Made by a program: the position numbers and the translations under genes | Notes under the pieces: model-generated | Databases searched by the model: none | What the model saw: only the letters and a program-made list of their open reading frames with translations | What the model was told of the DNA's origin: nothing | Shown: in pieces, positions 1 through 14,971 of the stretch | How the letters are laid out: every line of letters begins with the position of its first letter | Position numbering within the stretch: position 1 is the stretch's first letter | Assembly (NCBI RefSeq): GCF_024168825.1 | Contig: NZ_JALJWH010000001.1 | Span: forward strand, 3,410,001-3,474,000 | From: Paenarthrobacter sp. A20 | Lineage (GTDB): Bacteria > Actinomycetota > Actinomycetes > Actinomycetales > Micrococcaceae | Length of the DNA stretch: 64,000 nucleotides | Direction: 5' to 3'

Positions 1-710
1 ATCTTAGCCACCCATTCCTGCCGGCGTCGATCACTTCGGGACAGTTCGCCGACGGCGGGACGCACCACTGGGGCTGCAGGCGCCGCCCCATCCAGCCCGG
101 GCATCACGGAAAATTCGGTGCCCCACTGTCCCCGCGACGGGATAGTCGTCCGGTACGCGAAACCTTCACGGCCCGCTTCAGCGACATCGGAACTTACGAC
201 GACGGACTTCCGGACTTCCTGCCAGCGGGCGCGAATCGTCAGCGCCTTGGCATGGACCTCGCGGCTTTCTTCCCACTGCGTATGGACGCGCGCTTCCTTC
301 ACCTCGAAAACATCGGCGAAATCGGAACCTACGGTGATGGAAATGAGGCACTCCGCCGGGTTCGCCGAGTAGTTGCGCACGGTGATGTGCTCCACCATGC
401 CAACGCCCACTTCCCGTGTGCGTTCCACGATCAGCGGGTTGTCCGCGTATCCGTCGGACATGGTGATACGGCCGGCGAAGATTGCCCGGTAGGGTTCCTT
501 CGTTTGGGCGGTCAGGGGTTCCACCGGCTGCCCGTTCACGGTCAGTCCCCACGCGGAGAGGATGCGGGTGTCCTGGAAGAACAGGCCATGTGGATGTTCC
601 GGGCTGATGTCACCGCTGGGCAGCGAGATGCAGAAGGAAGTGCCCTCAACCAGGGTGACTGTCCCGGCGCCCAATGGACCGGCTGCGGTATCGGCATTCC
701 ATCCAGCCAT
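1..710 (-). CDS. Glycogen debranching-type protein, N-terminal part (cut by window edge)
   Basis: This gene starts at the ATG ending at 710, with an AAGGGAG ribosome site about 7 bases upstream, and leaves the window at base 1. About 236 N-terminal residues are visible. They match the N-terminal domain placed in front of amylo-alpha-1,6-glucosidase catalytic domains (GDE_N_bis). The visible part contains GLFFQDTRILSAW near residue 40 and a conserved VERTREVGVGMVEHITVRNY stretch further on. The family trims alpha-1,6 branch points of glycogen or related glucans in the cytoplasm. The catalytic (alpha/alpha)6 barrel lies outside the window, so substrate and completeness cannot be judged. Confidence 0.8.
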   Translation of the reverse strand, partial: MAGWNADTAAGPLGAGTVTLVEGTSFCISLPSGDISPEHPHGLFFQDTRILSAWGLTVNGQPVEPLTAQTKEPYRAIFAGRITMSDGYADNPLIVERTREVGVGMVEHITVRNYSANPAECLISITVGSDFADVFEVKEARVHTQWEESREVHAKALTIRARWQEVRKSVVVSSDVAEAGREGFAYRTTIPSRGQWGTEFSVMPGLDGAAPAAPVVRPAVGELSRSDRRRQEWVAK

Positions 711-795
711 TTTCCGGCTCCCTTGGCTGTCCTGTTACGTCCTCAGGGTGAGGCTACTCTTGCCCGTGGCCGTGGGCCACACCTTCGGATCGGGG

Positions 796-1053
796 TCAGC
801 TTCCGGGTGCGATGAATAGTTCGGTTTCGTCGTCGATATGGATGAGCCTGCGATCGCCAATGCGGTCTACTACCCAGATTGTGCGGCCATCAGCAGTGCG
901 ATCGTCCACCGAACCGCTGTGGTATTCATACCCACGCAAAGTCACTGTGACCCTGTCTCCGCGGTTCAGGGAGTTCCACAGGGACGCCTGCCGGCTCCTC
1001 GCGCTGGAAGAGGTGGCGGTGCTCACCGTCACGTTTTTCCGGTCTACGTTCAT
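796..1053 (-). CDS. Small conserved-looking hypothetical protein (85 aa)
   Basis: An 85-residue reading frame with a good ribosome site (AGGAGA, 9 bases before the ATG), lying 85 bases upstream of the debranching-type gene on the same strand. The N-terminal third is Ser/Arg rich. The remainder (about residues 33-80) alternates charged and hydrophobic residues (VTVTLRGYEYHSG, IWVVDRIGDRRLIHI) and looks like a small beta-barrel fold. There is no Cys, signal peptide or membrane segment. I do not recognise the family and infer no function. The ribosome site and regular codon use are the reasons to call it real. Confidence 0.6.
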   Translation of the reverse strand: MNVDRKNVTVSTATSSSARSRQASLWNSLNRGDRVTVTLRGYEYHSGSVDDRTADGRTIWVVDRIGDRRLIHIDDETELFIAPGS

Positions 1054-1135
1054 TTGGCGCGTTCTCCTAGGTGAGTGGACTGCGCCTTAGGCGAAGTGTC
1101 CGTCCTTTGGCTGTTTCCATGAAAGCCTATCGTCG

Positions 1136-1147
1136 ATTGTTGACAAT
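1136..1147 (+). promoter_or_regulatory. GntR/FCD-type operator, copy 1 (cupin promoter)
   Basis: Perfect 12-base palindrome ATTGTTGACAAT, 77 bases before the cupin gene. It contains a TTGACA hexamer (1140-1145) reading toward that gene. TAGAAT at 1151-1156 is a good -10 match just downstream. The same palindrome occurs at three other promoters here (5147, 9069, 9140), and a GntR/FCD repressor gene lies 500 bases away. Binding is inferred from copy number, placement and orientation. Confidence 0.7.
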
Positions 1148-1223
1148 TGCTAGAATGGAGTATGTGCCTTTCCAAAGACGGCGGGCACATTTACTTGGGG
1201 CCTCAGGCCCAGAAGGAGCAGTA

Positions 1224-1580
1224 ATGGTCAAGGCCACTGTTATGAACGATGCATTCACCGCCAACCCCGGGGAACACATCCCCAAAGCAACAAGCAGCAC
1301 ACCCGGTCAGACAGAAGTCTCGTTCCGCCTGTGGGCCAGGGACGGGCACAAGACGGGCATCTGGGAGGTCACGCGGGGAGTATTTCAGAGCACACGTCCG
1401 GGATACGACGAGATCTGCCAGATCCTCAGTGGCAAAGGAACCATCACCGAAGAAGATGGAAGCAGCTTTGAGGTTGGTCCTGGCACGTTGTTCGTGACGC
1501 CGGCCGGTTGGACGGGAACATGGACCATCCACGAGACGCTGCGGAAAATGTGGGTCGTGACTGACGTCCCCACGAACTAG
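1224..1580 (+). CDS. Cupin-domain protein, DUF861/Cupin_3 type
   Basis: A 118-residue single-domain cupin. The ATG at 1224 is preceded by AGAAGGAGC and fits the family length; an upstream in-frame extension has no ribosome site and would overlap the operator. Visible motifs are RPGYDEICQILSGKGTITEEDG (first cupin box, Glu as likely metal ligand) and GPGTLFVTPAGWTGTWTIHET (second box). Proteins of this type often sit in amino-acid, polyamine or ureide catabolic clusters, and some act as hydrolases or isomerases. It carries copy 1 of the shared operator and converges on the gntR gene across a strong terminator, so it is probably part of the same regulon. The reaction is unknown. Confidence 0.8.
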   Translation: MVKATVMNDAFTANPGEHIPKATSSTPGQTEVSFRLWARDGHKTGIWEVTRGVFQSTRPGYDEICQILSGKGTITEEDGSSFEVGPGTLFVTPAGWTGTWTIHETLRKMWVVTDVPTN

Positions 1581-1597
1581 CAGTGGCGATATAGCAG

Positions 1598-1636
1598 ACA
1601 AAGGAAGGGCCCGGTACGACCGGGCCCTTCCTTTGT
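1598..1636. terminator. Bidirectional terminator between cupin and gntR genes
   Basis: Perfect 17-bp inverted repeat (1598-1614 with 1620-1636, 5-base loop) rich in G/C at the apex and A/T at the base. Each strand therefore shows a GC hairpin ending in a TTCCTTT-like tail. It sits 18 bases after the cupin stop and 18 bases before the gntR stop, between convergent genes. Confidence 0.9.
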
Positions 1637-1653
1637 GCGAATCAAAAACGTGC

Positions 1654-2352
1654 CTAAGCGGTGATGCCGGTGACTTCCGGTTTGGACGTAAGGTCCTCCA
1701 CGGCCTTCTGCATGTGTCCCTTGATGGCTTCCTGAAGACCGCTCCGATCACGTGCTTCGAGCAGGTCCAGGATCATCTGGTGTTCCTGCACGAGTGCATC
1801 GATGCGGGGATATGCCACCTCCAGGCTGAGGATACACATCCTGGACTCGGCAGCAAGGGTCTCGTAGATCCGGATCAGGCGTGTATTCCCGGTTCCGGAC
1901 ACAAACGCGGTATGAAACTGCATATCCAGCCGGGCGATAGCCTGCCAGTCCGACGCCGCGACCTGTTTGGCCATACTGCGGATGATGCCTTTGAGTTCCC
2001 GGCAGGTGTCAGTGACCTGGTCCGGCTCGGAATCCAGGAGGGTGGTTGCGGCGGCAAGTTCCACTGCCTCGCGAACTGCGTAGATCTCCCTGACATCCTC
2101 CGTGGAGAGCTCCAGCACGAAAACGCCACGGTTGCGCTTGCTCACCAGGATGCCTTCCTGGCACAGCCGCTGCAGTGCTTCGCGGAGCGGGCCCCTGGAC
2201 GTACTAAGCTGGCTGGCTAACGCTGACTCGTTGACCTGCTGTCCAGGGCTGAAGGCTCCCTGGACTATCAGCTCACGCAATTGATCAGCGATCAGCTGCG
2301 CCGTGGGCCGGCCCTCCAATACGAACATTCCCTCCGGTGCCGCCATTGACAT
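1654..2352 (-). CDS. GntR-family transcriptional regulator, FCD subfamily
   Basis: A 232-residue protein. A GntR winged helix lies at about residues 15-80 (AQLIADQLRELIVQGAF, then SRGPLREALQRLCQEGIL). An FCD ligand domain occupies about 95-220. Likely metal-site residues are the Asp and His of RLDMQFHTAF and the His of VQEHQMILDLLEARD. It is the last gene of the gabT-gabD-gntR transcription unit, 33 bases after gabD. FCD regulators usually repress catabolic operons and release DNA on binding an organic or amino acid. The palindrome ATTGTNNACAAT upstream of four units around this gene is its probable operator, which implies autoregulation through the operon promoter at 5147. Confidence 0.92.
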   Translation of the reverse strand: MSMAAPEGMFVLEGRPTAQLIADQLRELIVQGAFSPGQQVNESALASQLSTSRGPLREALQRLCQEGILVSKRNRGVFVLELSTEDVREIYAVREAVELAAATTLLDSEPDQVTDTCRELKGIIRSMAKQVAASDWQAIARLDMQFHTAFVSGTGNTRLIRIYETLAAESRMCILSLEVAYPRIDALVQEHQMILDLLEARDRSGLQEAIKGHMQKAVEDLTSKPEVTGITA

Positions 2353-2385
2353 CCCCTCATTTCATGCTTCGGCAAGTTGAATCTA

Positions 2386-3840
2386 TTAGACCGCGATTGC
2401 TGTGTACTTATACTCCAGGAATTCTTCAATTCCGATTTTTCCGCCCTCACGGCCCAGCCCGGACTGCTTGACGCCGCCGAACGGTGCCGCCGGGTTGGAA
2501 ACCAGCCCGGTGTTCAGGCCAACCATTCCGACTTCCAGTTCCGCGGAGAACCGCAGGGCCTTTTCCATGCTCTCAGTGAATACGTACCCCACCAGGCCCC
2601 ATTCAGTATCGTTGGCCAGGCGAAGTACTTCGTCCTCGCTGTCGAACGGAGTGATCGCAGCAACCGGACCGAAGATTTCCGTGGCCATCAGGGTGGCATC
2701 CGTGGACACATCCACCAGCACCGTGGGGGAGTAGAAGTATCCCGGACCTTCCGGACGGCTTCCGCCGGTCAGGACCCTTGCGCCCTTGGAAACGGCGTCT
2801 GCAACGAGGCTTTCGACCTTCTCCAAGCCTTTCTGCTCGATGAGGGGCCCGACGTCGGTGCCGGTCAAAGCGCCGTTTCCCACCTGCAATTCTGACATCC
2901 TTTTGGAGAACTTCTCGCCAAATTCGTCCACCACGGAGCGGTGCACGAAGAAGCGGTTGGCAGCTGTGCAGGCCTCGCCCATGTTCCGCATTTTTGCCTT
3001 CATGGCGCCATCGACGGCCTTCTCGATGTCCGCGTCGGCCAGGACGATGAAAGGGGCGTTGCCGCCGAGCTCCATGGAGGACCGCATGACATTGTCCGCG
3101 GCCTGCCGCAGGAGAATCTTCCCCACTTCGGTGGAGCCGGTGAAGCTGATCTTGCGTGCGATCCCGCTGTCCGTCCAAGTTCTGACGACGCTGGAAGCGT
3201 TCGACGTCGTCACGACGTTCAGCACGCCGTCGGGAAGTCCCGCTTCCTTGAAGATGGCAACGAGCGCCAACGACGTGAGTGGCGTCAACTCCGCCGGTTT
3301 GAAGACCATGGTGCATCCCGCGGCGACTGCCGGCGCAATCTTTCGTGCACCCATGGCGAGTGGGAAGTTCCAGGGAGTCACCAGCACGGAAGGTCCCACA
3401 GGTTCCTTGGTGATGAGGATGCGGGTATTGCCATCCACGGAGGTGGCATTGTCGCCGCCGATCCGGACTGCTTCCTCCGAGAACCAGCGGAGCATCTCAG
3501 CACCATAGGCCACTTCGCCCCTTGCTTCGGCGAGGGGCTTGCCCATCTCGGCCGTCATGATGAATGCCAACCGGTCGGTGTTCGCAAGGACCAGGTCATA
3601 AGCGCGGCGGAGGATGTCTGCGCGCTCTCGGGGAGTGGACTTACCCCACGTTGCCTGTGCCTGTCCTGCAGCCTCGATAGCCAAGGCTGCGTCTTCAGGG
3701 CTGCCATCGGCGACGTGCGCAATGACTTCGTTCGTAGCGGGATTCTCCACAGCAAAAGTGGCGCCGTTTGCAGCGCTCTGCCACACGCCATTGATGAAGA
3801 GATTTGTCTGCAGGGTTGTGGGATCAAAGGAGGTGGTCAT
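2386..3840 (-). CDS. gabD: NAD(P)-dependent aldehyde dehydrogenase, succinate-semialdehyde type
   Basis: A 484-residue aldehyde dehydrogenase of GabD length. The cofactor-site Asn is in TPWNFP (about 158), the general base Glu257 is in MELGG, and the nucleophile Cys291 is in GEACTAANRF. It lies 25 bases after the class III aminotransferase and 33 bases before gntR on the same strand. A 4-aminobutyrate-type aminotransferase followed by this enzyme is the classic route of omega-amino acid to semialdehyde to dicarboxylate (GABA to succinate). Other semialdehydes, such as glutarate or malonate semialdehyde, cannot be excluded from sequence alone. Confidence 0.85.
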   Translation of the reverse strand: MTTSFDPTTLQTNLFINGVWQSAANGATFAVENPATNEVIAHVADGSPEDAALAIEAAGQAQATWGKSTPRERADILRRAYDLVLANTDRLAFIMTAEMGKPLAEARGEVAYGAEMLRWFSEEAVRIGGDNATSVDGNTRILITKEPVGPSVLVTPWNFPLAMGARKIAPAVAAGCTMVFKPAELTPLTSLALVAIFKEAGLPDGVLNVVTTSNASSVVRTWTDSGIARKISFTGSTEVGKILLRQAADNVMRSSMELGGNAPFIVLADADIEKAVDGAMKAKMRNMGEACTAANRFFVHRSVVDEFGEKFSKRMSELQVGNGALTGTDVGPLIEQKGLEKVESLVADAVSKGARVLTGGSRPEGPGYFYSPTVLVDVSTDATLMATEIFGPVAAITPFDSEDEVLRLANDTEWGLVGYVFTESMEKALRFSAELEVGMVGLNTGLVSNPAAPFGGVKQSGLGREGGKIGIEEFLEYKYTAIAV

Positions 3841-3865
3841 GGTGGCTCTTTCAGTGATCGTAAGG

Positions 3866-5119
3866 TTAGGAAGTGGCCGCTTTGAGTGCCTGCGTGAACC
3901 GGGTCAGGCCGGCTTGGATTTCGTCGCTTGTGACGTTCAACGCGGGGATGAGGCGGATGACGTTACCGTGCGGCCCACAGGTGAGGAGCAGGAGCTCTTC
4001 CTTGATGGCGGCCTGTTGGACGGCCAAAGCAGTGGTCGCGTCCGGGGTCTTGTCAGTGGCCGTGAATTCGACGCCCTGCATCAGTCCCCGGCCCCGGACA
4101 TTGCCAATTCCGGCGAACTCGGTTTGCAGCGCCTCCAGGCCCGTCCGCAGTTCGTCGCCGCGAAGAAGCGCGTTCTCCACGAGGTTTTCGCGCTGGATGA
4201 CGCCAAGAGTGGCGACGCCGGCGGCTGCGGCTACAGCGTTTCCACCGTAGGTTCCCCCCTGGGAGCCAGGCCAGGCTTTGCCCATCAGCTCTGCTGAGGC
4301 GGCGATTGCCGAGATGGGGAAGCCGCTGGCGAGGCCCTTGGCGGTAATGACGACGTCCGGCGTGATTCCGGCCCAGTCGTGACCCCAGAACTTACCGGTG
4401 CGGCCCACCCCGGCTTGGACCTCATCAAGGATCAGCACGATGCCGTGTTTATCTGCTCGTTCACGCAGTCCCTGGAGGAAGGCAACGGGCGTCGGGATGT
4501 AGCCGCCGTCACCAAGCACGGGTTCGATGATGAAACCGGCAGTATCGCTCGGGGCGCTGATAGTCAGCAGGAGGTGGTCCAGTTCTTTCAAGGCGAATTC
4601 GACGGCGGTAGCTTCGTCCCAGCCGTACCGGTACCAATGCGGGAACGGGGAAACATGAACCCCACCCATGATGGGGGAGAATCCGGAGCGGAACTTGGTG
4701 CCGGCCGTTGTGAGGGATGCCGCGGCAACTGTCCGGCCGTGGAACCCTCCTTGGAAGGAGATGATGTTGGGCCGCCCGGTGGCCATACGGGCCAGGCGGA
4801 TGGAGGCTTCTACTGCTTCAGAGCCCGACGTGGCGTAAAAGACGCTGTCTAAACCTTGCGGCAATATATCGCCAAGGAGTTCGGTGAGTTCCAGTAGCGG
4901 CTTGTGCATCACGGTGGTGTATTGGGCGTGAACAATTTTTCCCACCTGTTCACGGGCTGCGGCCACAACATCGGGGTGGCAGTGACCGGTGCTGGTCACA
5001 CCAATCCCGGTGGTGAAGTCCAGGTATTTCTTGCCGTCGGTCGCGTGGATCCAGCTACCGGCCGCATGGTCAACAACCACCGGGGTGGCTTGCTTCAGGA
5101 TAGGGCTAAGTGTTGCCAT
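3866..5119 (-). CDS. gabT: Class III (4-aminobutyrate type) aminotransferase
   Basis: A 417-residue PLP enzyme. It shows the phosphate-binding SGSEAVEASIRLA region (about 98-110), FQGGFHGRT (122-130), the cofactor Asp in LILDEVQAGVGRTG (about 229-242) and the PLP lysine K261 in ITAKGLASGFP. Length and motifs match 4-aminobutyrate aminotransferases. It is the first gene of the gabT-gabD-gntR unit. Operator copy 2 lies 28 bases upstream, and the -35-like TTGACA inside it is followed 17 bases later by AAGTAT, which would place transcription very close to the ATG. The leader may be very short. The true amino donor could be GABA, beta-alanine or a related omega-amino acid. Confidence 0.85.
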   Translation of the reverse strand: MATLSPILKQATPVVVDHAAGSWIHATDGKKYLDFTTGIGVTSTGHCHPDVVAAAREQVGKIVHAQYTTVMHKPLLELTELLGDILPQGLDSVFYATSGSEAVEASIRLARMATGRPNIISFQGGFHGRTVAAASLTTAGTKFRSGFSPIMGGVHVSPFPHWYRYGWDEATAVEFALKELDHLLLTISAPSDTAGFIIEPVLGDGGYIPTPVAFLQGLRERADKHGIVLILDEVQAGVGRTGKFWGHDWAGITPDVVITAKGLASGFPISAIAASAELMGKAWPGSQGGTYGGNAVAAAAGVATLGVIQRENLVENALLRGDELRTGLEALQTEFAGIGNVRGRGLMQGVEFTATDKTPDATTALAVQQAAIKEELLLLTCGPHGNVIRLIPALNVTSDEIQAGLTRFTQALKAATS

Positions 5120-5146
5120 GGCTTCATACTTTCTTAGGAACTGTAG

Positions 5147-5158
5147 ATTGTCAACAAT
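5147..5158 (-). promoter_or_regulatory. GntR/FCD-type operator, copy 2 (gabT promoter)
   Basis: ATTGTCAACAAT on the top strand, read as ATTGTTGACAAT toward gabT on the bottom strand. The TTGACA hexamer (5154 to 5149) again points at the regulated gene. The 16-mer GTAGATTGTCAACAAT at 5143-5158 is identical to 5143-equivalent bases 9065-9080 in front of the ABC transporter operon. Confidence 0.75.
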
Positions 5159-5199
5159 ACGCGATTGGCTGAGATATTCCCACGACGAGGCGGAACTCG

Positions 5200-6333
5200 T
5201 CAGGTCTCTTGGAACCTCTGTGGCCGAAGGAAGTCCAAACCGTCGAACCAGCGTTTGCCCAGTGCTTCGTTGGCGGCAATTTCCCCGTAGCCGGATGCCA
5301 TTTTGAAGCCGGCGCCTGAGAACCCGGTGGCGGAGTAGATGTGGCTGGACTCGTTGAGGAAGCCCATCAGCGGCTGCGAGTCGGAGGTAAAGAGATCCGG
5401 AAACGCATCGGAGCGCACGACGCTTGGAATCAAACCGGGGAAGAACTCTGAAACTGTTTCCGTGGTTTCGGCGATCTCGGCTTTGGTGAGGTCGCGGGGT
5501 ACTGAATCGGCCTCGGGGGTCGGTGCGCCACGACCATCAAGGGTGGCTTTGACGGTCACGCCGTCCACGGCGGGTGCGCCATACATGGAGCGATCACCGG
5601 AAATCCTGATGAAGATCGGAAACTGCTCCGGCGAGAATTGTTCTGCGTCACGTGCGACGAACCATGAGAGGAAGATCCTTCTGGTTTCGGTGTGGGCCTT
5701 GAGATATTCGGGCATGAGCTGTTTGGACCATGCCCCGGAGGCGACAATGACTCGTTCAAAGGTCCAGGAATTTGCGCCGGAGGTGATAACGACGCCATTG
5801 TCGGTTTCAGTAATGCTGTCAATTGGAGTGTTGGTGTTCACTGTTGCGCCGTTGGCCTCAGCTGCGGTGACGGCCGCGGTGATGGCACGATCTGTACGAA
5901 GGGCGCCCGCCTTGGGATCGTAGACGGCGATGTCATCAGCACGGAGGTTGTGTTGGGGGTAGCGGGAGGCCATTTCCTCACGGCTAAGTATCTGGTGGGT
6001 GCCTCCGGTCATTCGCGTGGTCTCGAGCAAGCTGCGGATGTATGGTCCGTCGCTGGTGCCGATGGAGAGTCCCCCACATCGGGTGAGGATGTCTTGTCCG
6101 GTCTCCGCTTCGAGTTCTGCCCAGAGTTCGCGCGAGCGTTCCAGTATGGGGTAGTAGGCAGGGTTGCCGCGGTAGATCATGCGGAAAAGCCGGGTGTCGC
6201 CACCTGCTGCACTGCGCCCGTGGGCAGGAGAGTGGGCTTCGAATCCCACGACGGAGTCGGTAAGGCGTGAGGCTTGCCAGAGGGCCATGCTGCCGATGCT
6301 GCCCAAGCCAATGACTGCGAGTTTCCCGTCCAT
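5200..6333 (-). CDS. FAD-dependent amine oxidase, monomeric sarcosine/N-methyltryptophan oxidase type
   Basis: A 377-residue DAO-superfamily flavoprotein. The N-terminal dinucleotide motif is VIGLGSIGSMAL (about 7-18), followed by GFEAHSPAHGRSAAGGDTRLFR, typical of the sarcosine oxidase/SolA branch. The C-terminal flavin motif is ATGFSGAGFKMASGYGE. In bacterial monomeric sarcosine oxidase FAD is linked to a Cys about 26 residues before GFSG; here that position is Phe, and the only Cys nearby in motif terms is in TRCGGLS near the N-terminus, so FAD is probably not covalent. The gene starts 2 bases after the ABC ATPase stop and belongs to the transporter operon. It probably oxidises the imported secondary amine or N-alkyl amino acid, giving an aldehyde plus amine and H2O2. 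Confidence 0.85.
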   Translation of the reverse strand: MDGKLAVIGLGSIGSMALWQASRLTDSVVGFEAHSPAHGRSAAGGDTRLFRMIYRGNPAYYPILERSRELWAELEAETGQDILTRCGGLSIGTSDGPYIRSLLETTRMTGGTHQILSREEMASRYPQHNLRADDIAVYDPKAGALRTDRAITAAVTAAEANGATVNTNTPIDSITETDNGVVITSGANSWTFERVIVASGAWSKQLMPEYLKAHTETRRIFLSWFVARDAEQFSPEQFPIFIRISGDRSMYGAPAVDGVTVKATLDGRGAPTPEADSVPRDLTKAEIAETTETVSEFFPGLIPSVVRSDAFPDLFTSDSQPLMGFLNESSHIYSATGFSGAGFKMASGYGEIAANEALGKRWFDGLDFLRPQRFQET

Positions 6334-6335
6334 GG

Positions 6336-7103
6336 TTAGAGGACCTGCTTGAGGAAGGCTTGGGTGCGGGGTTCTTTGGGGTTGGTGAGGACTTCGCGGG
6401 CGTCGCCGCGTTCTACGACGTTGCCTTCGTCCATGAAGATCAGGGAGTCGGCTACTTCGCGGGCGAAGCCCATTTCGTGGGTGACGACCACCATGGTCAT
6501 GCCTTTTTTGGCGAGGTCTTGCATGACGTTGAGGACTTCGCCGACTTTTCCGGGGTCCAGGGCGGAGGTGGGTTCGTCGAAGAGGATGATTTCGGGGTTC
6601 ATGGCCAGGGATCGGGCGATGGCGACGCGTTGTTGTTGTCCGCCGGATAGTTCGGCGGGGTAGCGGTCACCGAAAGCGCCGAGGCCGACGCTGGTGAGGA
6701 GTTCCTGGGCTTGTTTGGCTGATTGCTTTTTGTCGGCACGTTTGACCAAGACGGGGCCGGCCATGACGTTTTCGCGAGCGGTCATGTTGGGGAAGAGGTT
6801 GAAGGACTGGAAGACCATGCCTACGCGGGTGCGCTGTTGGGCTAATTTTTTGGGTGGTAGTGCGTGGTAAGCGGTGTCGGTTTCGTAGTAGCCGAAGTCT
6901 TCGCCGTTGACTTTCAGGATGCCGGAGTCCACGGTTTCGAGGCCGTTGATGCAGCGCAGGAGGGTGGATTTGCCGGAGCCGGAGGGGCCGATGATGCAGC
7001 AGATTTCTCCGCTGGCGATGGTCAGGTCGACGTCCTTGAGGACTGTTTTGGGTCCGAAGGACTTCCTGATCTTTTGGGCGTGGATGGTGCCGTCAGCGTT
7101 CAT
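6336..7103 (-). CDS. Amino-acid ABC transporter ATP-binding protein
   Basis: A 255-residue ATPase of the polar amino acid (HisP/GlnQ) class. It has Walker [14 protein letters not shown], the Q-loop region [15 protein letters not shown], signature [15 protein letters not shown], Walker [14 protein letters not shown] and switch His in [15 protein letters not shown]. The ATG at 7103 overlaps the permease stop as ATGA. Longer in-frame extensions run through the permease gene in the wrong frame and are not real. It energises the importer formed with the adjacent permease and lipoprotein. Confidence 0.95.
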
Positions 7104-8041
7104 CGTGCGATGCCTTCCGGTGCGGTGAGTGTCACTTTGCGGGCTTTGCGGGGGACCCGGGCGGAGGTGTGGGAGTACTTTTGTTCGAGCTTGGATTGGG
7201 GGTAGCTCAGGAGCATGGTCATGACGAGGTACCAGAGGCTGGCGACGATGAGCAGGGGGATGGTTTCGTAGGTGCGGGCGTAGATGAGTTGGGCGCTTTG
7301 GAGGAGTTCGGCTACGCCCAGGACGGAGACCAGGGAAGTGCCTTTGAACATGCCGATGACTTGGTTGCCGGTGGCGGGGATGATCGAGGGCATGGCTTGG
7401 GGGATGATGACTTTGCGCATTTTCATGGCACCGCTCATGCCCAGGGAGTCGGCGGCTTCGATTTGGCCTTTGCCTACTGAGGAGAATCCGCCGCGGATGA
7501 TTTCGGCCATGTAGGCTGCTTCGTTCAGGGTCAAGCCCACCAGGGCTGCGGTGATGGGGCCCATGAGGGCGTTGGTGTCGATCGCGGTGCCGATGTCGGT
7601 GAAGGGGATGCCGATGGACAGATTCGGGTACAGGGCGGAGAGGTTGAACCAGAAAATCAATTGGACCAGGACCGGGGTGCCGCGGAAGATCGTGATGTAG
7701 ACCCCGGCGACGGCGGCTATGGGTTTGATGGTGGAGGCCCGCATGATGGCCAGGCCCAGTCCGAGGAGAGTGCCCAGGGCCATGCTGGCCACCGTGAGGA
7801 AGATGGTGAGCATCAACCCGCGCAGGATCGATTCGTGCGTGAAGTACTTCGCCACGACGTCCCATTTGAAGTTCGGGTTCGTCGCGACCGAGCTAAGGAC
7901 GCCGATACCGACCAGGATGCAGACAACCCAGGAAACGTACTCAAAAGTGCTGCGCCGCTTCAGCCGCGGCTTCAACGCCGAATCCAACCCGTTCATCACT
8001 TTGCTTCTATCCATAGTCACTTGCTTCATCGGAAGACCCAC
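7100..8041 (-). CDS. Amino-acid ABC transporter permease
   Basis: A 313-residue inner-membrane protein of the His/Glu/Gln/Arg permease family. It has about five to six transmembrane segments and the EAA cytoplasmic loop ([23 protein letters not shown]), which docks the ATPase. The open frame starts with GTG at 8041, sharing a base with the binding-protein stop. ATG codons at 8029 and 8014 are alternative starts. Only one permease gene is present, so it probably forms a homodimer. The C-terminal tail after about residue 285 is basic and cytoplasmic. Confidence 0.92.
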
Positions 8042-8961
8042 TAGTTCAATTTGGCGTCGGTAATGGCTCCGGACTCGAGGCCCCAGTTGTCGAGGGACTC
8101 TTTGTACTCCGGGGTCTGAAGAACGGACTGGAGCGCCGTCTGGAAGGCCGGCGTCAAGGGTGAGCCCTTCTTCAAACCGATTGCGGTCAGGTCGCTGGCC
8201 CCCACATCAACGCGGCCCACCAGCTCGAAGGATCCGGGCTGCTGTTTCTCAGCCCACGCAAGTGCAGTTGTGTCGTACAGGATTCCGTCAATGCGCTTGG
8301 AGTGCAGCTGGGTCAGGGCGTCCTGGACGTTGGGCAACGTCACGCCATTGATGGCCGGCTGTCCCTTTGACGTGCAGCTCTGTTCGCTCAGAGCGGGGAG
8401 GCGCTTAAGCTGGCCTGTTGACCCTTGGGTGACGGCGATGTTCTTACCGCACAGGGTTTCCACGGTGAGCTTGAGCGGGTTGCCTTTGGGCACGGCCACG
8501 GAGTTGCCGGCCTTGAAGTAGTCGATCATGTCCAGGACTTTCAGTCGTTCTTCCGTCTTGGACATGGTGGTGGCAGTGAAGTCGAAGCGACCGCCATCAA
8601 GCCCAGGAACAATAGTGTCGAACTTCGTGTCCACGAATTTCAGCTTCAGGTCAAGCTTCCTCGCAATGAGCCTGGCGATGTCGGGATTGAGGCCAATCGC
8701 GGTCGTATTGTCTTCCGCGAGGAAGGTGGTGGGCGGGTAGTGCAGGTCCATGGCGACCGTGAGCTCGCCCTTGTCCTTGATCGACTGCGGCAACAGGGCC
8801 ACGGCAGCCGAATCAGGCTGGACGCCCTCGGAAATGTCTGTGGTGTCGGCAGTCTTGCTGTTGTCTGCAGAGTCGCTAGTGGCGGTGCCGCCACATGCGC
8901 TCAATGCAAGGAGTATTGCAAGTCCTGCGGCGGCGGTTTGCGCCTTGGTGCGAATCTTCAT
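8041..8961 (-). CDS. Amino-acid ABC transporter substrate-binding lipoprotein
   Basis: A 306-residue family 3 extracellular solute-binding protein. The signal sequence ends in lipobox LSAC near residue 23, followed by a Ser/Asp/Thr-rich linker. The binding core runs from about residue 60 and contains VAMDLHYPPTTF, GLNPDIARLIARKL and GGRFDFTATTMSKTEERL, typical of polar amino acid receptors. It is the first gene of the unit that also encodes the permease, ATPase and flavin amine oxidase. The promoter holds operator copy 3. The ligand is probably an amino acid or amine derivative later attacked by the co-transcribed oxidase. Confidence 0.92.
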   Translation of the reverse strand: MKIRTKAQTAAAGLAILLALSACGGTATSDSADNSKTADTTDISEGVQPDSAAVALLPQSIKDKGELTVAMDLHYPPTTFLAEDNTTAIGLNPDIARLIARKLDLKLKFVDTKFDTIVPGLDGGRFDFTATTMSKTEERLKVLDMIDYFKAGNSVAVPKGNPLKLTVETLCGKNIAVTQGSTGQLKRLPALSEQSCTSKGQPAINGVTLPNVQDALTQLHSKRIDGILYDTTALAWAEKQQPGSFELVGRVDVGASDLTAIGLKKGSPLTPAFQTALQSVLQTPEYKESLDNWGLESGAITDAKLN

Positions 8962-9068
8962 GGTGGTTCCCTTCGAGGGAGTCGGTCACTGGGGAGGGAG
9001 AAGTTTTCAGTTGCACTGTGATCCGGATCTCTCCGTCATCTAATGCAATGCAACCCCTTCAATAGTAG

Positions 9069-9080
9069 ATTGTCAACAAT
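9069..9080 (-). promoter_or_regulatory. GntR/FCD-type operator, copy 3 (ABC transporter promoter)
   Basis: Perfect palindrome ATTGTCAACAAT. Its bottom-strand TTGACA (9076 to 9071) points to the solute-binding lipoprotein gene 108 bases away. A candidate -10, TTGCAT, lies 17 bases further but is weak. Confidence 0.7.
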
Positions 9081-9139
9081 TGACGGAAACTTTTTTCAAC
9101 AATCGAGTGTATGAGAATCGTTCTAATCTGCGCATTCAA

Positions 9140-9173
9140 ACTGTTGACAATTGACAATCCAGCGGCCTAGAGT
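9140..9173 (+). promoter_or_regulatory. GntR/FCD-type operator copy 4 with promoter for the HAD-led operon
   Basis: ACTGTTGACAAT at 9140-9151 matches the palindrome except one base. The embedded TTGACA (9144-9149) is followed after 18 bases by TAGAGT (9168-9173), the best sigma70-like promoter of the four sites. An RNA starting near 9180 would have a leader of about 115 bases before the HAD gene. Confidence 0.7.
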
Positions 9174-9295
9174 CGAGACATCCGGCGACGATCTTTCGCT
9201 CGCCCAGCAGGATTTTTGCGGTTCATTTCGCTTCACCTGATACCCCAATAGTGCGGGGCCAGCCCGCTTCCATCTCCCCAAAAGAACGGAATCCC

Positions 9296-9970
9296 ATGGC
9301 AGACACCAACTTCCGGCCCAAGTACATCTCTTTTGATATCTACGGCACCCTGATCAACTTCGACATCGATCCCACCACCCGGCGGCTGCTCGATGGTCGT
9401 ATTTCCGAAGAGCAGTGGCCTGTGTTTAAGAAGCAGTTCCGCGGATACCGCTTCGACGAGGTGCTTGGCGATTACAAGCCTTACGAGGAGATCCTGCAGG
9501 ATTCCTTTGACCGGGTGTGCAAGCGATGGGGCATTGGGCCGACCGAGGGCGCCGGCGCAGAGTTCGCTGACGCTGTACGCGGCTGGGTTGCCCACGAGGA
9601 CGTGCCGGCCCCGCTCAAGGTCATGGGCGACAACTACCAGCTGGTGGCTCTGTCCAACGCGGACACCAGCTTCCTGGACATCAGCATCCCCAAGCTCGGC
9701 GCAGACTTCCACTCCGTCCTCACCGCCGAGCAAGCCCAGGCGTACAAGCCGCGCTACCAGGCCTTCGAGTACATGCTGGACACCCTGAACGCCAAGCCGG
9801 AGGACTTCCTGCACATCTCTTCCCACACGCGCTACGACATGCATCCCATGCACGACATGGGCTTCCGGAACCTCTGGATGCTGGACCGCGGCTATGACCC
9901 CATTGGCGACGGCTACGACCTCGACACCGCTAAATCCCTGGACGAGATCAACAAGCACCTCGGTCTCTAA
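9296..9970 (+). CDS. HAD-superfamily hydrolase, haloacid dehalogenase type II-like
   Basis: A 224-residue HAD protein. The nucleophile Asp is in ISFDIYGTL (about residue 14). Motif II is in VALSNADTSFL, and motif III Lys is in QAYKPRYQAFEYML. The DxYGT form and length resemble (S)-2-haloacid dehalogenases, yet many such proteins are phosphatases. The ATG at 9296 is preferred to an upstream in-frame start at 9251 because of conservation, although its ribosome site is weak. It is the first gene of the rightward operon under operator copy 4. Being next to flavin oxidases and dehydrogenases argues for a metabolic hydrolase or phosphatase step rather than dehalogenation; this is inference. Confidence 0.82.
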   Translation: MADTNFRPKYISFDIYGTLINFDIDPTTRRLLDGRISEEQWPVFKKQFRGYRFDEVLGDYKPYEEILQDSFDRVCKRWGIGPTEGAGAEFADAVRGWVAHEDVPAPLKVMGDNYQLVALSNADTSFLDISIPKLGADFHSVLTAEQAQAYKPRYQAFEYMLDTLNAKPEDFLHISSHTRYDMHPMHDMGFRNLWMLDRGYDPIGDGYDLDTAKSLDEINKHLGL

Positions 9971-9997
9971 ACCGACTACGAGGCGAAAGGCAAACCC

Positions 9998-11275
9998 GTG
10001 AAACTTGTTCCCTACTGGCTCGATACTGCTGAGCCATCCGGCGATTACCGCCGCACTCCGGTCCCGGAAAACGTTGATGTTGCGATCATTGGTGCCGGCT
10101 TTACCGGTCTATCCGCAGCACTTGAATTCGCCAAGCAAGGCGCCAGCGTGGCCGTTTTCGAGCGCCATACCGTTGGTTGGGGCGCGTCGGGCCGTAATGG
10201 GGGCATGGCTACCACTGGCTTGGCCATTGGCTTCAGCACGGCAGTCAAACGGTACGGGGCCCCACGAGCCGTTGAGATGTTCAGGGAATACAACGACGCC
10301 ATCGAAACCATCGAGAAGCTGGTGCACGACAACGGCATCGACTGCGACTACAAACGTTTCGGCAAACTCTCCCTCGCGTTCCACAAGTCACACTACGACG
10401 GCTTCCTGAAGTCCCAGGAGCTGCTCGCCAACCTTGTGGATCACCACGTAAATGTCATCCCTAAGTCCGAGATCCACAGCGAAATCGGAACAGACTTTTA
10501 CCAGGGTGCAATGATGGACCCCCTGGGGGCGGGCCTGCACGTGGGGAAGTTCGTTCACGGGCTGGCAAAAGTGGCCGCTGACCATGGAGCTGACATCTGC
10601 GAGAACGCAAGCGTCACTGAGCTGAAGAAGGTTTCGGGCACCGTGCATGACGTCCACACCACCCGGGGAATAACCCGGGCCAAACAGGTCCTGGTTGCCA
10701 CCAGCGGCTACACCGGCAACGTCACTCCCTGGCTTCAGCGCCGCGTGATTCCGGTGGGCAGCTTCATCATCGTCACCGAACCCTTGCCCGAAGAAGTGGT
10801 GAATCGAATTCTCCCGAACAGGCGACAGGCTTCGGACAGCAAGATGCTGACGTACTACTTCCGGATTACCCCTGACAACCGGCTGCTCTTCGGTGGCCGG
10901 GCGCGGTTCGCCATGTCCAATCCGGAATCGGATGTCAAGAGTGGCGAGATCCTGCATAGCGCCATGACTGAGCTCTTCCCATACCTGTCCAACGCCAAGG
11001 TGGATTACATCTGGGGTGGCCTGGTGGACCTGTCCATGGACCAGATGGTGCACGCCGGCGTTCATGACGGACTGTTTTACTCGCTCTGCTACAGCGGCCA
11101 TGGTGTACAGATGGCCGCACACATGGGCAAGAGGATGGCCCACTACATGGCAGGGGACAAGCAGGCGAATGTGTGGGAAGACCTGAAGAACCCGCCAGTG
11201 CCGGGCCACTTCGGCCCGCCGTGGTTCCTGCCCTTCATCGGCGCAGCGGCAAAAGTCATCGACCGGATCAAGTAG
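9998..11275 (+). CDS. FAD-dependent oxidoreductase, gamma-glutamylputrescine oxidase (PuuB)-like
   Basis: A 425-residue DAO-family flavoenzyme. The GTG start at 9998 has AAAGG seven bases upstream. The Rossmann motif is VAIIGAGFTGLSAALEFA (about 28-45), with the ribose-binding Glu55 ending VAVFE. GWGASGRNGGMA is typical of PuuB/glycine oxidase relatives. The C-terminal flavin contact is YSLCYSGHGVQMAAHMGK. Relatives oxidise secondary amines such as gamma-glutamylputrescine to an aldehyde. It is followed 15 bases later by an aldehyde dehydrogenase gene, as expected for an amine-to-acid route. No glutamylpolyamine synthetase lies in the window, so the exact substrate stays open. Confidence 0.85.
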   Translation: MKLVPYWLDTAEPSGDYRRTPVPENVDVAIIGAGFTGLSAALEFAKQGASVAVFERHTVGWGASGRNGGMATTGLAIGFSTAVKRYGAPRAVEMFREYNDAIETIEKLVHDNGIDCDYKRFGKLSLAFHKSHYDGFLKSQELLANLVDHHVNVIPKSEIHSEIGTDFYQGAMMDPLGAGLHVGKFVHGLAKVAADHGADICENASVTELKKVSGTVHDVHTTRGITRAKQVLVATSGYTGNVTPWLQRRVIPVGSFIIVTEPLPEEVVNRILPNRRQASDSKMLTYYFRITPDNRLLFGGRARFAMSNPESDVKSGEILHSAMTELFPYLSNAKVDYIWGGLVDLSMDQMVHAGVHDGLFYSLCYSGHGVQMAAHMGKRMAHYMAGDKQANVWEDLKNPPVPGHFGPPWFLPFIGAAAKVIDRIK

Positions 11276-11290
11276 CAGGAAAAGGTTTCC

Positions 11291-12841
11291 ATGAGTTCAT
11301 CAACCAAAGACGCTGCAGCGCGCCCAAAATCAGGGCAGGAGACTGCCTACAGGCGGGCAAGTATTGCCGCCCTGCCTGGCGGTGCCTTCCTGGAAGGCCG
11401 TTGGGAAACGGTTGACAGGATCCTTGAAGTCCGGGATCCCGAAGACGGCGTCCTGCTGGGCGCTGTGTGTTCTTCTTCCCCTCAGGATGTGCGCCGTGCG
11501 GTTGCCTTCATTCATCGCCACCTCCAGGAAGATGATTGGGTTCTCCGGGACCGCCGGGAGGCCCTGGAACGTGCTGCACTGCTGCTTACGGGCCAGAGCG
11601 TGCGGTTCGCGGAGATCATCGCCGCAGAAAGCAGCAAGACCATCAACGAGGCTGAGCGTGAAGTGCGCCGGTGCATAGAGACGTTGCGACTATCCGCTGC
11701 GGCGTCCAGCGAACTCGTCGGAGAGACGCTCGCGTTTGAAGACAGTATCGTCGGGGCGAATAAGATCGGCTGGTACAACCGCAAGCCAGTGGGAATCATC
11801 GCGGCCATCACCCCCTTCAATGATCCGCTCAATCTCGTGGCACACAAGCTGGGCCCGGCACTGATCGGGGGCAACGGCGTCGTGCTTAAACCCTCAGGCC
11901 GAACGCCACTCACCGGCCTTGCCCTGATCCAACTGTTGTTGGAAGCGGGCGTCCCCGCAGGTCGCCTTGCCGCAATCGTCTCGGGGCCGGGCGTCTCAGA
12001 AGCGATCGTGACCGACCCTCAGGTGGACCTCATCTCTTTCACGGGTGGACCGAAGACTGCCTACCGTATCGCTGCCGCCGCGGGAGCAAAGAAGATCCTT
12101 TCCGAGCTCGGCGGCAACAATGCAACGATCGTCTGCGCGGACGCAGACGCAAACGCCGCTGCCGAGGCGGTAGTGGCCGGCGCTTTCGGAGTGGCAGGCC
12201 AAAACTGCCTGTCCGTGCAACGGGTCTACGTTCACATCTCCCTGTTCGATCAAGTCCTTGAAAAGGTGGTCGCTGGAACCCGGACGCTTCGTGTCGGGGC
12301 TAAGTTCGATCGCGCCACGGACGTCGGGCCGATGATCACTGAAGCCGAGGCCCGCCGGGTGGAGGAATGGGTGGAGAAGGCCAAAAGCGCTGGCGGAACG
12401 GTCCATGTGGGTGGCCAGCGACACGGCGCGTTCTACCAGCCAACAGTGCTCACGGACGTGCCCCCAGACGCCCTGGTCATCCGCGAGGAAGTGTTTGGCC
12501 CCGTGGTCAGTATCTTGCCGTTCATCCAGATCGCCGATGCCATCCGTGCCGCCAACGACTCCGATTACGGGCTCCAAGCCGGCGTATTCACGGAGTCGAT
12601 CGAGCTGGCCCTGGCCATAGCCGACAAGTTGCACGTGGGTGCCGTGGTGATCAACGAGACCAGCGATGTACGGATTGACTCAATGCCCTTCGGCGGCTTC
12701 AAGAAATCCGGGGTGGGCCGCGAAGGCGTCAAACACGCGGTACGCGAGATGACCGAACCCAAAAGCACCATCATCAAATTGGCCGAACCCGCCACCCGCT
12801 GGCAGCAACTCAATGCCACCTCAGAACGGAATGCATCATGA
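11291..12841 (+). CDS. Aldehyde dehydrogenase family protein
   Basis: A 516-residue NAD(P)-dependent aldehyde dehydrogenase. Active-site residues are visible: Asn177 in TPFNDPLN, Glu272 in LSELGGNNA and Cys306 in GQNCLSVQRV. The divergent Asn region (FNDPLN rather than WNFP) places it with the phosphonoacetaldehyde/lactaldehyde/glyceraldehyde-type group rather than betaine aldehyde enzymes. AGGAAAAGG precedes the ATG. It overlaps the next gene by ATGA, so translation is coupled. It likely oxidises the aldehyde released by the upstream flavin oxidase. Confidence 0.88.
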   Translation: MSSSTKDAAARPKSGQETAYRRASIAALPGGAFLEGRWETVDRILEVRDPEDGVLLGAVCSSSPQDVRRAVAFIHRHLQEDDWVLRDRREALERAALLLTGQSVRFAEIIAAESSKTINEAEREVRRCIETLRLSAAASSELVGETLAFEDSIVGANKIGWYNRKPVGIIAAITPFNDPLNLVAHKLGPALIGGNGVVLKPSGRTPLTGLALIQLLLEAGVPAGRLAAIVSGPGVSEAIVTDPQVDLISFTGGPKTAYRIAAAAGAKKILSELGGNNATIVCADADANAAAEAVVAGAFGVAGQNCLSVQRVYVHISLFDQVLEKVVAGTRTLRVGAKFDRATDVGPMITEAEARRVEEWVEKAKSAGGTVHVGGQRHGAFYQPTVLTDVPPDALVIREEVFGPVVSILPFIQIADAIRAANDSDYGLQAGVFTESIELALAIADKLHVGAVVINETSDVRIDSMPFGGFKKSGVGREGVKHAVREMTEPKSTIIKLAEPATRWQQLNATSERNAS

Positions 12842-13950
12842 CGACCCATAAGATCGCAGTTATCGCGGGCGACGGAATCGGAAAAGAAGTTGTTCCCGCA
12901 GCCATTGAATGCCTCGAACGGATCGCGCAGCTCCACTCCATCAACCTTGAGTTCACCCACTTCGGCTGGGGCTCGGACTACTACGGCGAGCACGGGCGAA
13001 TGATGCCCAATGACGGGCTGGAACAGCTGTCGCAGCATGACGCGATCTTCCTGGGCGCCGTCGGCTCACCGGAAGTTCCGGACGCTGAATCCTTGTGGGG
13101 CCTGTTGATTCCCATTCGCCGCGAATTCCAGCAATACATCAACCTCCGCCCGGTGAAAACGCTCGACGGCGTGAAGTCACCCCTGGCAAACAAGGAACCG
13201 ATAGATATCCTCATCGTGCGTGAAAACAACGAAGGGGAGTACTCGGAGGTCGGCGGCCGCGCCTATCGCGGGTTGCCCCATGAGACAGCCGTCCAAGAAA
13301 CCATCTTCACCCGTCTGGGAGTATCGCGTGCCGCACACTACGCAGCATCGTTGGCATCAACCCGGAAGGGTCACCTGACCTCGGCCACCAAGAGCAACGG
13401 CATCATCCACACCATGCCGTTCTGGGACGAAGTAGTGGAAGAAACCACCCGCCTGTACCCTCACGTGACGCTCTCGAGCGAACTGGTGGACGCGCTGGCT
13501 GCCCACTTGGTTTTGAAACCCTGGACCTTCGACGTCATTGTCGCCTCCAACCTGCTGGGCGACATCCTCTCCGACCTCGGCAGCTCCGTTACCGGTTCCA
13601 TCGGCGTAGCCCCCAGCGCCAACCTGAACCCGGAAGGTGACTTCCCGTCCCTCTTCGAACCCGTCCACGGATCAGCCCCGGACATCGCAGGCAAAGGACT
13701 GGCCAACCCGGTAGGCCAGATCTGGTCCGGAGCAATGATGCTCCAGCACCTGGGCCACCCGGAAGCTGCCGAGCACCTGCAGCTGGCCTTCGAATCAGTG
13801 CTGCGCGAGGGCCTGGGCACCCGCGACGTCGGAGGACCCTCGTCGACCTCGGAATTCACTGCCGCCGTGCTGGCTGCCATCGATGTCTTGAGGGCTGTTG
13901 TCTCGCTGGATGCGAGCCCGGCCGGAAAGCCGGCAACGGCGTCGTCATGA
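12838..13950 (+). CDS. Tartrate / D-malate type oxidative decarboxylating dehydrogenase
   Basis: A 370-residue member of the isocitrate/isopropylmalate dehydrogenase family. It follows the DmlA/TtuC subgroup closely: IAVIAGDGIGKEV at the N-terminus, FGWGSDYYGEHGRMMP, INLRPVKTL, IVRENNEGEYSEVGGR, catalytic Lys in TSATKSNGI, metal Asp in VVASNLLGDILSDLG, and the cofactor loop FEPVHGSAPDIAGKG. The subgroup oxidises and decarboxylates D-malate, tartrate or related 2-hydroxyacids with NAD+ and a divalent metal. Both gene ends overlap neighbours by ATGA. In this operon it could handle the hydroxy-dicarboxylate end of the pathway. Confidence 0.88.
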   Translation: MTTHKIAVIAGDGIGKEVVPAAIECLERIAQLHSINLEFTHFGWGSDYYGEHGRMMPNDGLEQLSQHDAIFLGAVGSPEVPDAESLWGLLIPIRREFQQYINLRPVKTLDGVKSPLANKEPIDILIVRENNEGEYSEVGGRAYRGLPHETAVQETIFTRLGVSRAAHYAASLASTRKGHLTSATKSNGIIHTMPFWDEVVEETTRLYPHVTLSSELVDALAAHLVLKPWTFDVIVASNLLGDILSDLGSSVTGSIGVAPSANLNPEGDFPSLFEPVHGSAPDIAGKGLANPVGQIWSGAMMLQHLGHPEAAEHLQLAFESVLREGLGTRDVGGPSSTSEFTAAVLAAIDVLRAVVSLDASPAGKPATASS

Positions 13951-14927
13951 CGATAGCCGAACGCAAGCGGCCGGTTGTCGCACTCCTGTATCGGGAGGCT
14001 CTGCCGCCCGGATTGGACGAGATCGAGGAATTGGCTGACGTGCGCCTGACCACGGCAGACGGCCTCGCTGAAGCAATGGACGGTGCGGATGTGCTGTACC
14101 AATGGCATTCCTTCTCGCCTGCACTGCGTGAGAACTGGGCTGCGGCCTCATCACTGAAATGGGTCCACGTTTCAGCGGCCGGCGTCAGCCAACTCCTCTT
14201 CGATGATCTGATTAACAGCGACGTTGTATACACGAACTCGCGTGGTGTCCTGAGCCGTTCAATCGCCGAATTTACGCTTGGATTTGTCTTGGACATCGCC
14301 AAGGATTCCCAGGACTCGCTGAGGCTCCAGCAGGCCCGGCGTTGGAAGCACCGGGTCACCCGGAAGATCCAAGGCCAGCGGGTGCTGGTGGTCGGGACAG
14401 GGTCAATCGGACAGGAGATCGCGGCCCTGTTCCGTGCCGTGGGCCTGCGCGTCAGCGGTGCCGGACGCAGCAGCCGACCAGGGGATGAGTACTTTGATGA
14501 GATCCACTCCTCCCGGGATCTGGCCGTGATTGTCCGCGACTTTGACTACGTTGTACTGGCCGCACCGCTGACCGAAGACACCAAGTATTTGGTGGACGCC
14601 AACGTCCTTTCCGCCATGAAGCCCACAGCACATCTCATCAATGTGGGGCGCGGAGAGTTGGTTCAGACTGATGCCCTGGTGGACGCACTGCGCTCGGGAT
14701 CCATTGCCGGGGCCGCGCTCGACGTGGTGCACCCGGAACCACTGCCGCCTGAACACCCGCTATGGAGCATGAACAATGTCATCCTCACTCCACACATGAG
14801 CGGCGACACCGAGGACTACCTCGACGATCTTGGGAAGCTGTTCGTCGAAAACCTCTGGCGGTTCAGCCGGGGAGAACCACTGCAGAACGTTGTGGACAAA
14901 AAACTCGGGTTCGTTCCCGTTCCCTGA
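13947..14927 (+). CDS. D-isomer specific 2-hydroxyacid dehydrogenase
   Basis: A 326-residue NAD(P)-dependent oxidoreductase. The Rossmann motif is VLVVGTGSIGQEIA. It has INVGRGELV, ALDVVHPEPLP and the His of ILTPHMSGDTEDY, a general acid/base position of this family. The hydrophobic patch KWVHVSAAGV lies near residue 72. It overlaps the preceding gene by ATGA and ends the tightly coupled block that began with the HAD gene. The family reduces 2-ketoacids or oxidises D-2-hydroxyacids. Specificity is not readable, but it resembles glyoxylate/hydroxypyruvate reductase-like members. Confidence 0.87.
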   Translation: MTIAERKRPVVALLYREALPPGLDEIEELADVRLTTADGLAEAMDGADVLYQWHSFSPALRENWAAASSLKWVHVSAAGVSQLLFDDLINSDVVYTNSRGVLSRSIAEFTLGFVLDIAKDSQDSLRLQQARRWKHRVTRKIQGQRVLVVGTGSIGQEIAALFRAVGLRVSGAGRSSRPGDEYFDEIHSSRDLAVIVRDFDYVVLAAPLTEDTKYLVDANVLSAMKPTAHLINVGRGELVQTDALVDALRSGSIAGAALDVVHPEPLPPEHPLWSMNNVILTPHMSGDTEDYLDDLGKLFVENLWRFSRGEPLQNVVDKKLGFVPVP

Positions 14928-14971
14928 TTCCTCCTTACCTCTACCTATTCAGCTTCCAAAGGGACTTTGCC

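Follow-up and report, generated by a model that had tools for sequence, protein, structure and literature searches.

A conserved putative operator at five promoters and its likely GntR/FCD regulator in a probable Paenarthrobacter cluster for amine uptake and oxidation

Near the beginning of a 64,000-nt stretch of the Paenarthrobacter sp. A20 genome (hereafter the window), a gene for a GntR-family regulator with an FCD domain (1654-2352, - strand) lies among genes for the probable uptake and oxidation of an amino-acid-like amine, and one short palindrome recurs upstream of several of them. Is this palindrome the operator of that regulator, and does it act, as a first-pass annotation had supposed, by building a -35 hexamer into each operator? 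We consider it likely, with a probability of about 0.82, that the protein acts as a local repressor, probably also of its own gene, in a cluster that takes up and oxidises an amino-acid-like amine, and that it uses one operator at five promoters.

The 12-mer ATTGTTGACAAT occurs exactly at 1136 (+), 5147 (-) and 9069 (-), and with a single mismatch, as ACTGTTGACAAT, at 9140 (+), the four places that the annotation had given. Operator 1 (1136-1147, +) lies upstream of a cupin gene and has an outer box, ATCGT, 7 bp upstream of its ATTGT half-site. Operator 2 (5147-5158, -) is 28 nt before the ATG of an aminotransferase gene, and operator 3 (9069-9080, -) is upstream of the binding-protein gene of a transporter. 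Operator 4 (9140-9151, +), where a direct ACAAT half-site comes after ACTGTTGACAAT with a pitch of 7 bp, precedes a gene for a haloacid dehalogenase (HAD) hydrolase. Operators 3 and 4 share one divergent intergenic region and were assigned to their genes by distance. A fifth, exact operator is located at genome position 3408225, about 1.8 kb before the window start. The embedded TTGACA is oriented toward the nearest downstream gene at all four window sites, as had been noticed, and at the fifth too; the chance of 1 in 16 attached to this orientation was generous, since the divergent region of 9069 and 9140 faces genes either way.

Because TTGACA is itself the common -35 consensus, the sites might reflect chance or a coincidence with promoter consensus. 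However, the exact 12-mer has four copies in the 5.38-Mb genome (3408225, 3411136, 3415147 and 3419069), all confined to 10.9 kb, whereas the base composition of the window predicts about 0.11 for the whole genome. Within the window, where palindromic sites were scored on both strands, 10 matches with up to two mismatches were found against a shuffle mean of 2.62, and none of 100 shuffles reached 10. Chance is already contradicted by conservation in related loci, and we regard its probability as negligible. The relaxed pattern ATTGTNNACAAT gives one extra, distant copy at 3152936; by eye, the 12 other one-mismatch copies in the genome, this one included, lack the conserved operator flanks.

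Conservation was counted in 42 related loci and the window, for gene starts with at least 200 nt of upstream sequence. The exact site precedes 27 of 27 aminotransferase starts and 9 of 11 cupin starts (each at no less than 70% identity, window included); the two cupin starts without it belong to Nocardia loci, where the cupin gene follows gntR in the same direction. Binding-protein starts that come first in their unit (at least 60% identity) have the site in 24 of 24 cases, 20 exact and 4 with one mismatch, three of these four having the centre CG. Among the 12 binding-protein starts that follow gntR or another cluster gene, 10 lack the site and 2 have it with one mismatch. HAD starts (at least 60% identity, window included) carry a one-mismatch site in 20 of 21 cases, 19 of them ACTGTTGACAAT, and the HAD gene of locus L045 has an operator with two mismatches. 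The half-sites extend to HAD paralogues of 30-60% identity, where eight of nine members have them exact and the remaining one has a single mismatch. These counts support a predicted operator common to the units of the cluster, and bear out the conservation that had been proposed as a check.

The second proposed check, co-occurrence with the 1654-2352 protein, also turned out in its favour. Regulator presence was defined by E ≤ 1e-40 in 149 genomes, with 19 first-look candidates scored per listed genome; 25 genomes have the regulator and 36 the exact 12-mer. The 12-mer is present in 23 of 25 gene-bearing and 13 of 124 gene-negative genomes (both 23, gene only 2, site only 13, neither 111; Fisher p = 9e-16). 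Within the same genus alone it is found in 21 of 23 genomes with the gene and 8 of 68 without (both 21, gene only 2, site only 8, neither 60; p = 4e-12). The reversed pattern, used as a control, gives 8 matches in 6 genomes versus 117 in 36 for the true pattern. A found gene copy is no more than 20 kb away from 74 of the 95 sites in the gene-bearing genomes. Both gene-only genomes look decayed: an in-frame stop interrupts the regulator match of G054, which starts only at residue 33, and in the 1.5-kb flanks of G022 only a 42-base ssadh match lies beside gntR. One-mismatch copies of the 12-mer number 5 and 7 in these two genomes. In three site-only genomes (G064, G119 and G134), a site lies 1.4-2.2 kb from a homologue of 35-38% identity. 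The 1654-2352 protein is the likely owner of the sites, since they co-occur with its gene and cluster near it, and since the other FCD proteins that were compared are dissimilar.

The first-pass annotation had allowed that a different GntR protein might use the sites, and they could also be cross-read by several paralogues. FCD matches number 34 in the genome, two to six homologues are present in each of 10 of the 25 gene-bearing relatives, and homologues of 30-44% identity occur near the same motif. Yet among the 30 of these 34 loci that the comparison covered, the best other match reaches 31.7% identity over 221 residues (shorter stretches reach 38%), and the exact 12-mer is found in this genome solely around gene 1654-2352. 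Ownership by another protein therefore seems unlikely here; in genomes with tandem regulator copies, cross-reading is likely.

Several points weigh against a local repressor encoded by 1654-2352. In gene-bearing genomes, no copy of the gene was found within 20 kb of 21 of the 95 sites, and in 9 of the 13 site-only genomes a homologue (E ≤ 1e-15) is likewise absent from the 20 kb around a site. In G059, another site-only genome, one of the four sites has a 30% homologue at a distance of 11 kb. Neither orthologous loci nor related genomes count as independent observations, and the p-values overstate the independent evidence. Finally, we infer repression rather than activation solely from the position of the operators. 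A local FCD repressor with a predicted operator at five promoters is well supported because the sites are conserved upstream of orthologues and the 12-mer tracks the gene; as far as sequence can show, the regulon is real. Autoregulation is plausible through operator 2: gntR is the last gene of an aminotransferase-aldehyde dehydrogenase-gntR unit with gaps of 25 and 33 bp, and ssadh lies directly upstream of gntR in 32 of 54 gntR copies (at least 60% identity, window included).

How would the operator act? An embedded -35 was assessed by counting the spacing from TTGACA to TANNNT in each promoter class, a TANNNT 16-19 bp after TTGACA being taken as its mark. This arrangement is found at the HAD promoter alone. 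Although the other half-site of the HAD operator is constantly degenerate (ACTGT in 19 of 21), TTGACA and TANNNT are retained in 20 of 20 promoters, at a distance of 18 bp in 19 and of 17 bp in the other. The predicted -10 of the window, TAGAGT (9168-9173, +), lies 18 bp after TTGACA (9144-9149). The HAD promoter is the single clear case, and very probably uses the operator TTGACA as its -35.

At the cupin promoter, an extended -10 (TG-N-TANNNT) starts 5 bp after TTGACA in 9 of 9 cases, and TANNNT is found at 16-19 bp in none; the window has a predicted extended -10, TGCTAGAAT (1148-1156, +), 5 bp after TTGACA, with TAGAAT at 1151-1156. The fifth promoter shows the same spacing in 6 of 6 homologues, again with none at 16-19 bp. 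Because the predicted extended -10 begins 5 bp after it, TTGACA is not the -35 of either promoter. No TANNNT occurs at 16-19 bp in the 27 aminotransferase promoters or the 21 TTGACA-bearing transporter sites. Instead, AAGTAT is found at 17 bp in 22 of 27 aminotransferase promoters (5126-5131 in the window), and TTGCAT at 17 bp in 20 of 21 transporter promoters (9048-9053 in the window), where the spacer between TTGACA and TTGCAT varies in sequence. An operator -35 is possible at both. In all but one of the 27 loci, the aminotransferase ATG follows the operator by 27-29 nt, so that the transcript may be nearly leaderless if AAGTAT is the -10; the purine-rich stretch before this ATG could equally well be a ribosome site. 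A conserved GATCCGGATCACA-like element on the - strand (9017-9035), downstream of the transporter promoter in many relatives, is possibly the site of a second regulator.

That every operator acts by carrying the -35 hexamer of its own promoter appears very unlikely. Orientation speaks for it, as TTGACA faces the gene closest to it in the orthologues with an exact site (aminotransferase 27, transporter 20, cupin 9, fifth site 6) and also in 20 HAD sites. Besides the spacings above, however, the transporter operator ACTGTCGACAAT of L036, L037 and L038 (two Nocardia loci and one Sinomonas locus), with the centre CG, has lost the -35 hexamer and kept the palindrome with one mismatch, and in paralogous clusters TTGACA is directed away from the Cupin_3 gene (L041, L022) or the centre is CG. 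The TG centre may be of importance to the operator itself, because it is kept where a -35 role is impossible. The idea of a -35 in each operator thus stands for the HAD promoter, is possible for the transporter and aminotransferase promoters, and fails for the cupin promoter and for the fifth promoter outside the window. Beside these unsupported parts of the first interpretation we note that the operator count is low, with five promoters in the genome.

The operator core, ATTGT-2-ACAAT, is a palindrome that agrees with the FCD-subfamily pattern of GT and AC boxes 2-3 nt apart (PMC4494728). Among 93 distinct sites, 41 have a second, directly repeated half-site (no more than one mismatch) exactly 7 bp outward on the upstream side, and 31 have one on the downstream side; at other offsets from 5 to 15, direct repeats occur in 0-4 and inverted repeats in 0-8 of the 93 sites. 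By analogy this arrangement is usual GntR-family behaviour: in the sections considered here, a survey of the family (PMC4494728) describes weaker boxes 7-12 nt from site centres and, for several groups of the FadR subfamily (GntR, HpxS, HypR, MdcY, PrpR and UxuR), GT and AC boxes 2 nt apart. The FadR-subfamily (FCD) regulons in those sections share the TKGT/ACMA palindrome with 2 nt between GT and AC, the extra half-sites near it and the local catabolic regulon. In contrast, the present sites differ in their flanking bases, keep a fixed TG centre across most of the orthologous units and have outer boxes at a pitch of exactly 7 bp, and the gene content of the cluster is not named in the parts of the survey covered (PMC4494728).

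The most likely mechanism is ordinary steric repression with two operator registers. A repressor dimer would read ATTGT-NN-ACAAT, reinforced by the outer half-sites at 7-bp pitch, in five promoters of the genome. At the HAD promoter it would lie over the -35 and occlude TTGACA from RNA polymerase, and the transporter and aminotransferase promoters may be alike; at the cupin and fifth promoters it would sit just upstream of the extended -10 and block there. A carboxylate or amine metabolite of the pathway, bound in the FCD domain, would release the repressor. It is also conceivable, but quite unlikely, that the regulator activates rather than represses some of these promoters. GntR-family regulators are capable of both, and in the part of the report considered, HypR of Streptomyces seems positive at one promoter (PMC6608401). 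However, the operator overlaps or abuts the predicted core element at the HAD, cupin and fifth promoters, the usual place of a repressor; the core element is less certain at the transporter and aminotransferase promoters.

Beyond steric repression, the outer boxes permit a more elaborate reading that we consider possible but doubtful. The protein would use a four-half-site operator with 7-bp pitch (ATNGT-NN-ATTGT-NN-ACAAT-NN-ACNAT) in two core-promoter registers. In the units for uptake and oxidation it would cover the -35, and it would occupy the spacer ahead of the extended -10 for the cupin and the small protein behind the fifth operator, with graded repression and an order of induction. 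If this were true, register and the choice of outer boxes would tune repression strengths and set the induction order within one regulon, and the degenerate HAD half-site would represent a tuned weak operator.

Two FCD repressors offer closer comparison. Atu1419 of Agrobacterium fabrum, from the VanR group of FCD, likewise represses a catabolic cluster through a short palindrome with a GT-2-AC core (ATGTATACAT), with sites over the -10 and between the -10 and -35 in the part of the report considered (PMC7797058). It differs in that a tetramer loops between sites 190 bp apart (PMC7797058), whereas the divergent operators 3 and 4 are 71 bp apart. Across loci the two operators are separated by 61-83 bp in 20 of 21 and by 48 bp in L045, and these distances show no clear helical phasing in favour of looping between them. 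HypR of Streptomyces coelicolor is, as far as the part considered goes, another actinobacterial, autoregulated FCD repressor of an amino-acid oxidation cluster with a DAO-family enzyme, but has the consensus CTNTGC(A/C)ATGTCAC and another pathway (PMC6608401). The listings from literature searches on Arthrobacter and Paenarthrobacter GntR regulators and regulons, and on promoter overlap by GntR/FCD proteins, show no description of the present regulon, and in literature full text the 12-mer ATTGTTGACAAT appears in one paper on a cyanobacterial LacI promoter. The locus provides an exactly defined operator and regulon, open to test, for an Arthrobacter regulator of which these searches found no description. 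An uncharacterised small protein is among the likely members of the regulon, and the promoters form a series from nature in which one operator stands at different places. The regulon is a sound but ordinary local control circuit, and leaves the understanding of GntR regulation unchanged.

The regulator has Pfam matches to FCD (80.1 bits) and GntR (65 bits), both above cut-off, in agreement with the GntR/FCD gene that had been placed in one of the units; an N-terminal GntR winged helix and a C-terminal FCD domain assign it to the FCD (FadR) subfamily. Asp143, His147, His191 and His213 fit the FCD metal-site pattern. Its best NCBIfam match is the phosphonate-utilisation-associated regulator phnR_burk (TIGR03338), but at 134.1 bits it scores far below the curated cut-off of 271.5 bits, and membership was rejected. 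The two closest relatives of the regulator in the search, each with 97% identity, come from Paenarthrobacter sp. CM16 and Arthrobacter sp. MYb23.

Facing gntR is the gene for an EutQ-like Cupin_3 protein (1224-1580, +; Pfam Cupin_3, 66 bits), with a probable start at 1224 behind AGAAGGAG. The gntR unit further contains an SSADH-like aldehyde dehydrogenase (2386-3840, -; Pfam match, with SSADH the top NCBIfam match yet below cut-off) and a class III aminotransferase resembling gamma-aminobutyrate (GABA) aminotransferase (3866-5119, -; Pfam match, PDB neighbours GabT and PuuE). On the same strand, a flavin adenine dinucleotide (FAD) amine oxidase of the N-methyltryptophan/sarcosine oxidase group (5200-6333, -) scores 267.9 bits as N-methyl-L-tryptophan oxidase in NCBIfam, against a cut-off of 257. 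In the sarcosine oxidase group a cysteine binds the flavin covalently; here both alignments place Phe311, not Cys, at that column. The amino-acid ATP-binding cassette (ABC) transporter consists of an ATPase (6339-7097, -; the 3' part of the open reading frame (ORF) 6336-7865, TcyN/GlnQ/EhuA-like, with its three best NCBIfam matches below cut-offs), a permease (7100-8041, -; HEQRo_perm_3TM above the NCBIfam cut-off) and a family 3 solute-binding protein (8041-8961, -; Pfam SBP_bac_3).

On the opposite strand, the HAD hydrolase (9296-9970, +) belongs to the haloacid dehalogenase type II family (NCBIfam, above cut-off); a protein-database search with it gave no added functional clue among the 120 of 1503 matches listed. 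It is followed by a pipecolate-oxidase-like FAD-dependent amine oxidase of the DAO family (9998-11275, +; Pfam match, NCBIfam AmaA below cut-off), an aldehyde dehydrogenase (11291-12841, +; below cut-off for all of the 25 of 43 NCBIfam families listed), a tartrate dehydrogenase family protein (12838-13950, +; NCBIfam, above cut-off) and a D-2-hydroxyacid dehydrogenase family protein (13947-14927, +; NCBIfam, below cut-off). The GABA-aminotransferase-like and SSADH-like enzymes, two FAD amine oxidases and an amino-acid importer suggest an N-substituted or gamma-amino acid as the substrate of the cluster; no Pfam, NCBIfam or PDB-neighbour family match pins it down.

The fifth operator precedes an ORF for a 77-residue protein (L048:12299-12529), about 1.7 kb before the window, that has no Pfam or NCBIfam match. 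By eye, its homologues share the pattern TGHxCPxTGWW...MPA and lie behind the same operator in L009, L013, L014, L019 and L025. Divergent from this operator is a 129-residue ORF (L048:11711-12100) whose product has an FCD domain but lacks a GntR match, possibly an effector-only remnant or a modulator.

Close to where the cupin transcript is predicted to begin, a short inverted repeat (GTGCC...GGCAC, 1163-1190) has a conserved TCCAA loop. Covariation in this hairpin is not above that of shuffles (score 0.262, reached by 107 of 500): 93.9% of cells pair (77 of 500 shuffles as high), and changes on both sides are seen in 1 pair (reached by 356 of 500). An Rfam search of 1-15000 gave a single family with a sub-gathering score, on both strands of an inverted repeat at 1595-1639, and no structured leader.

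In five loci (L013:10801, L016:13604, L020:10786, L025:10836 and L026:10768), the operator and its CTATCGT flank are kept at places with no detected cupin match. These operators face the 3' end of gntR with -10 elements of variable quality, and in L013, L020 and L026 a hairpin seen by eye follows immediately; they may be relics of cupin loss or short RNAs. A tandem second transporter-gntR module occurs in L015-L018, L020-L022 and L024-L026, where two regulators, each 72-82% identical to that of the window, flank the second transporter set. The paralogous cluster L041:3509-11398 encodes Cupin_3, HAD, YjgF/RidA-like and D-threonine-aldolase/D-serine-dehydratase-like proteins, a DAO oxidase, a sarcosine-oxidase-like enzyme and two GntR proteins, and has adjacent TG- and CG-centred operators.

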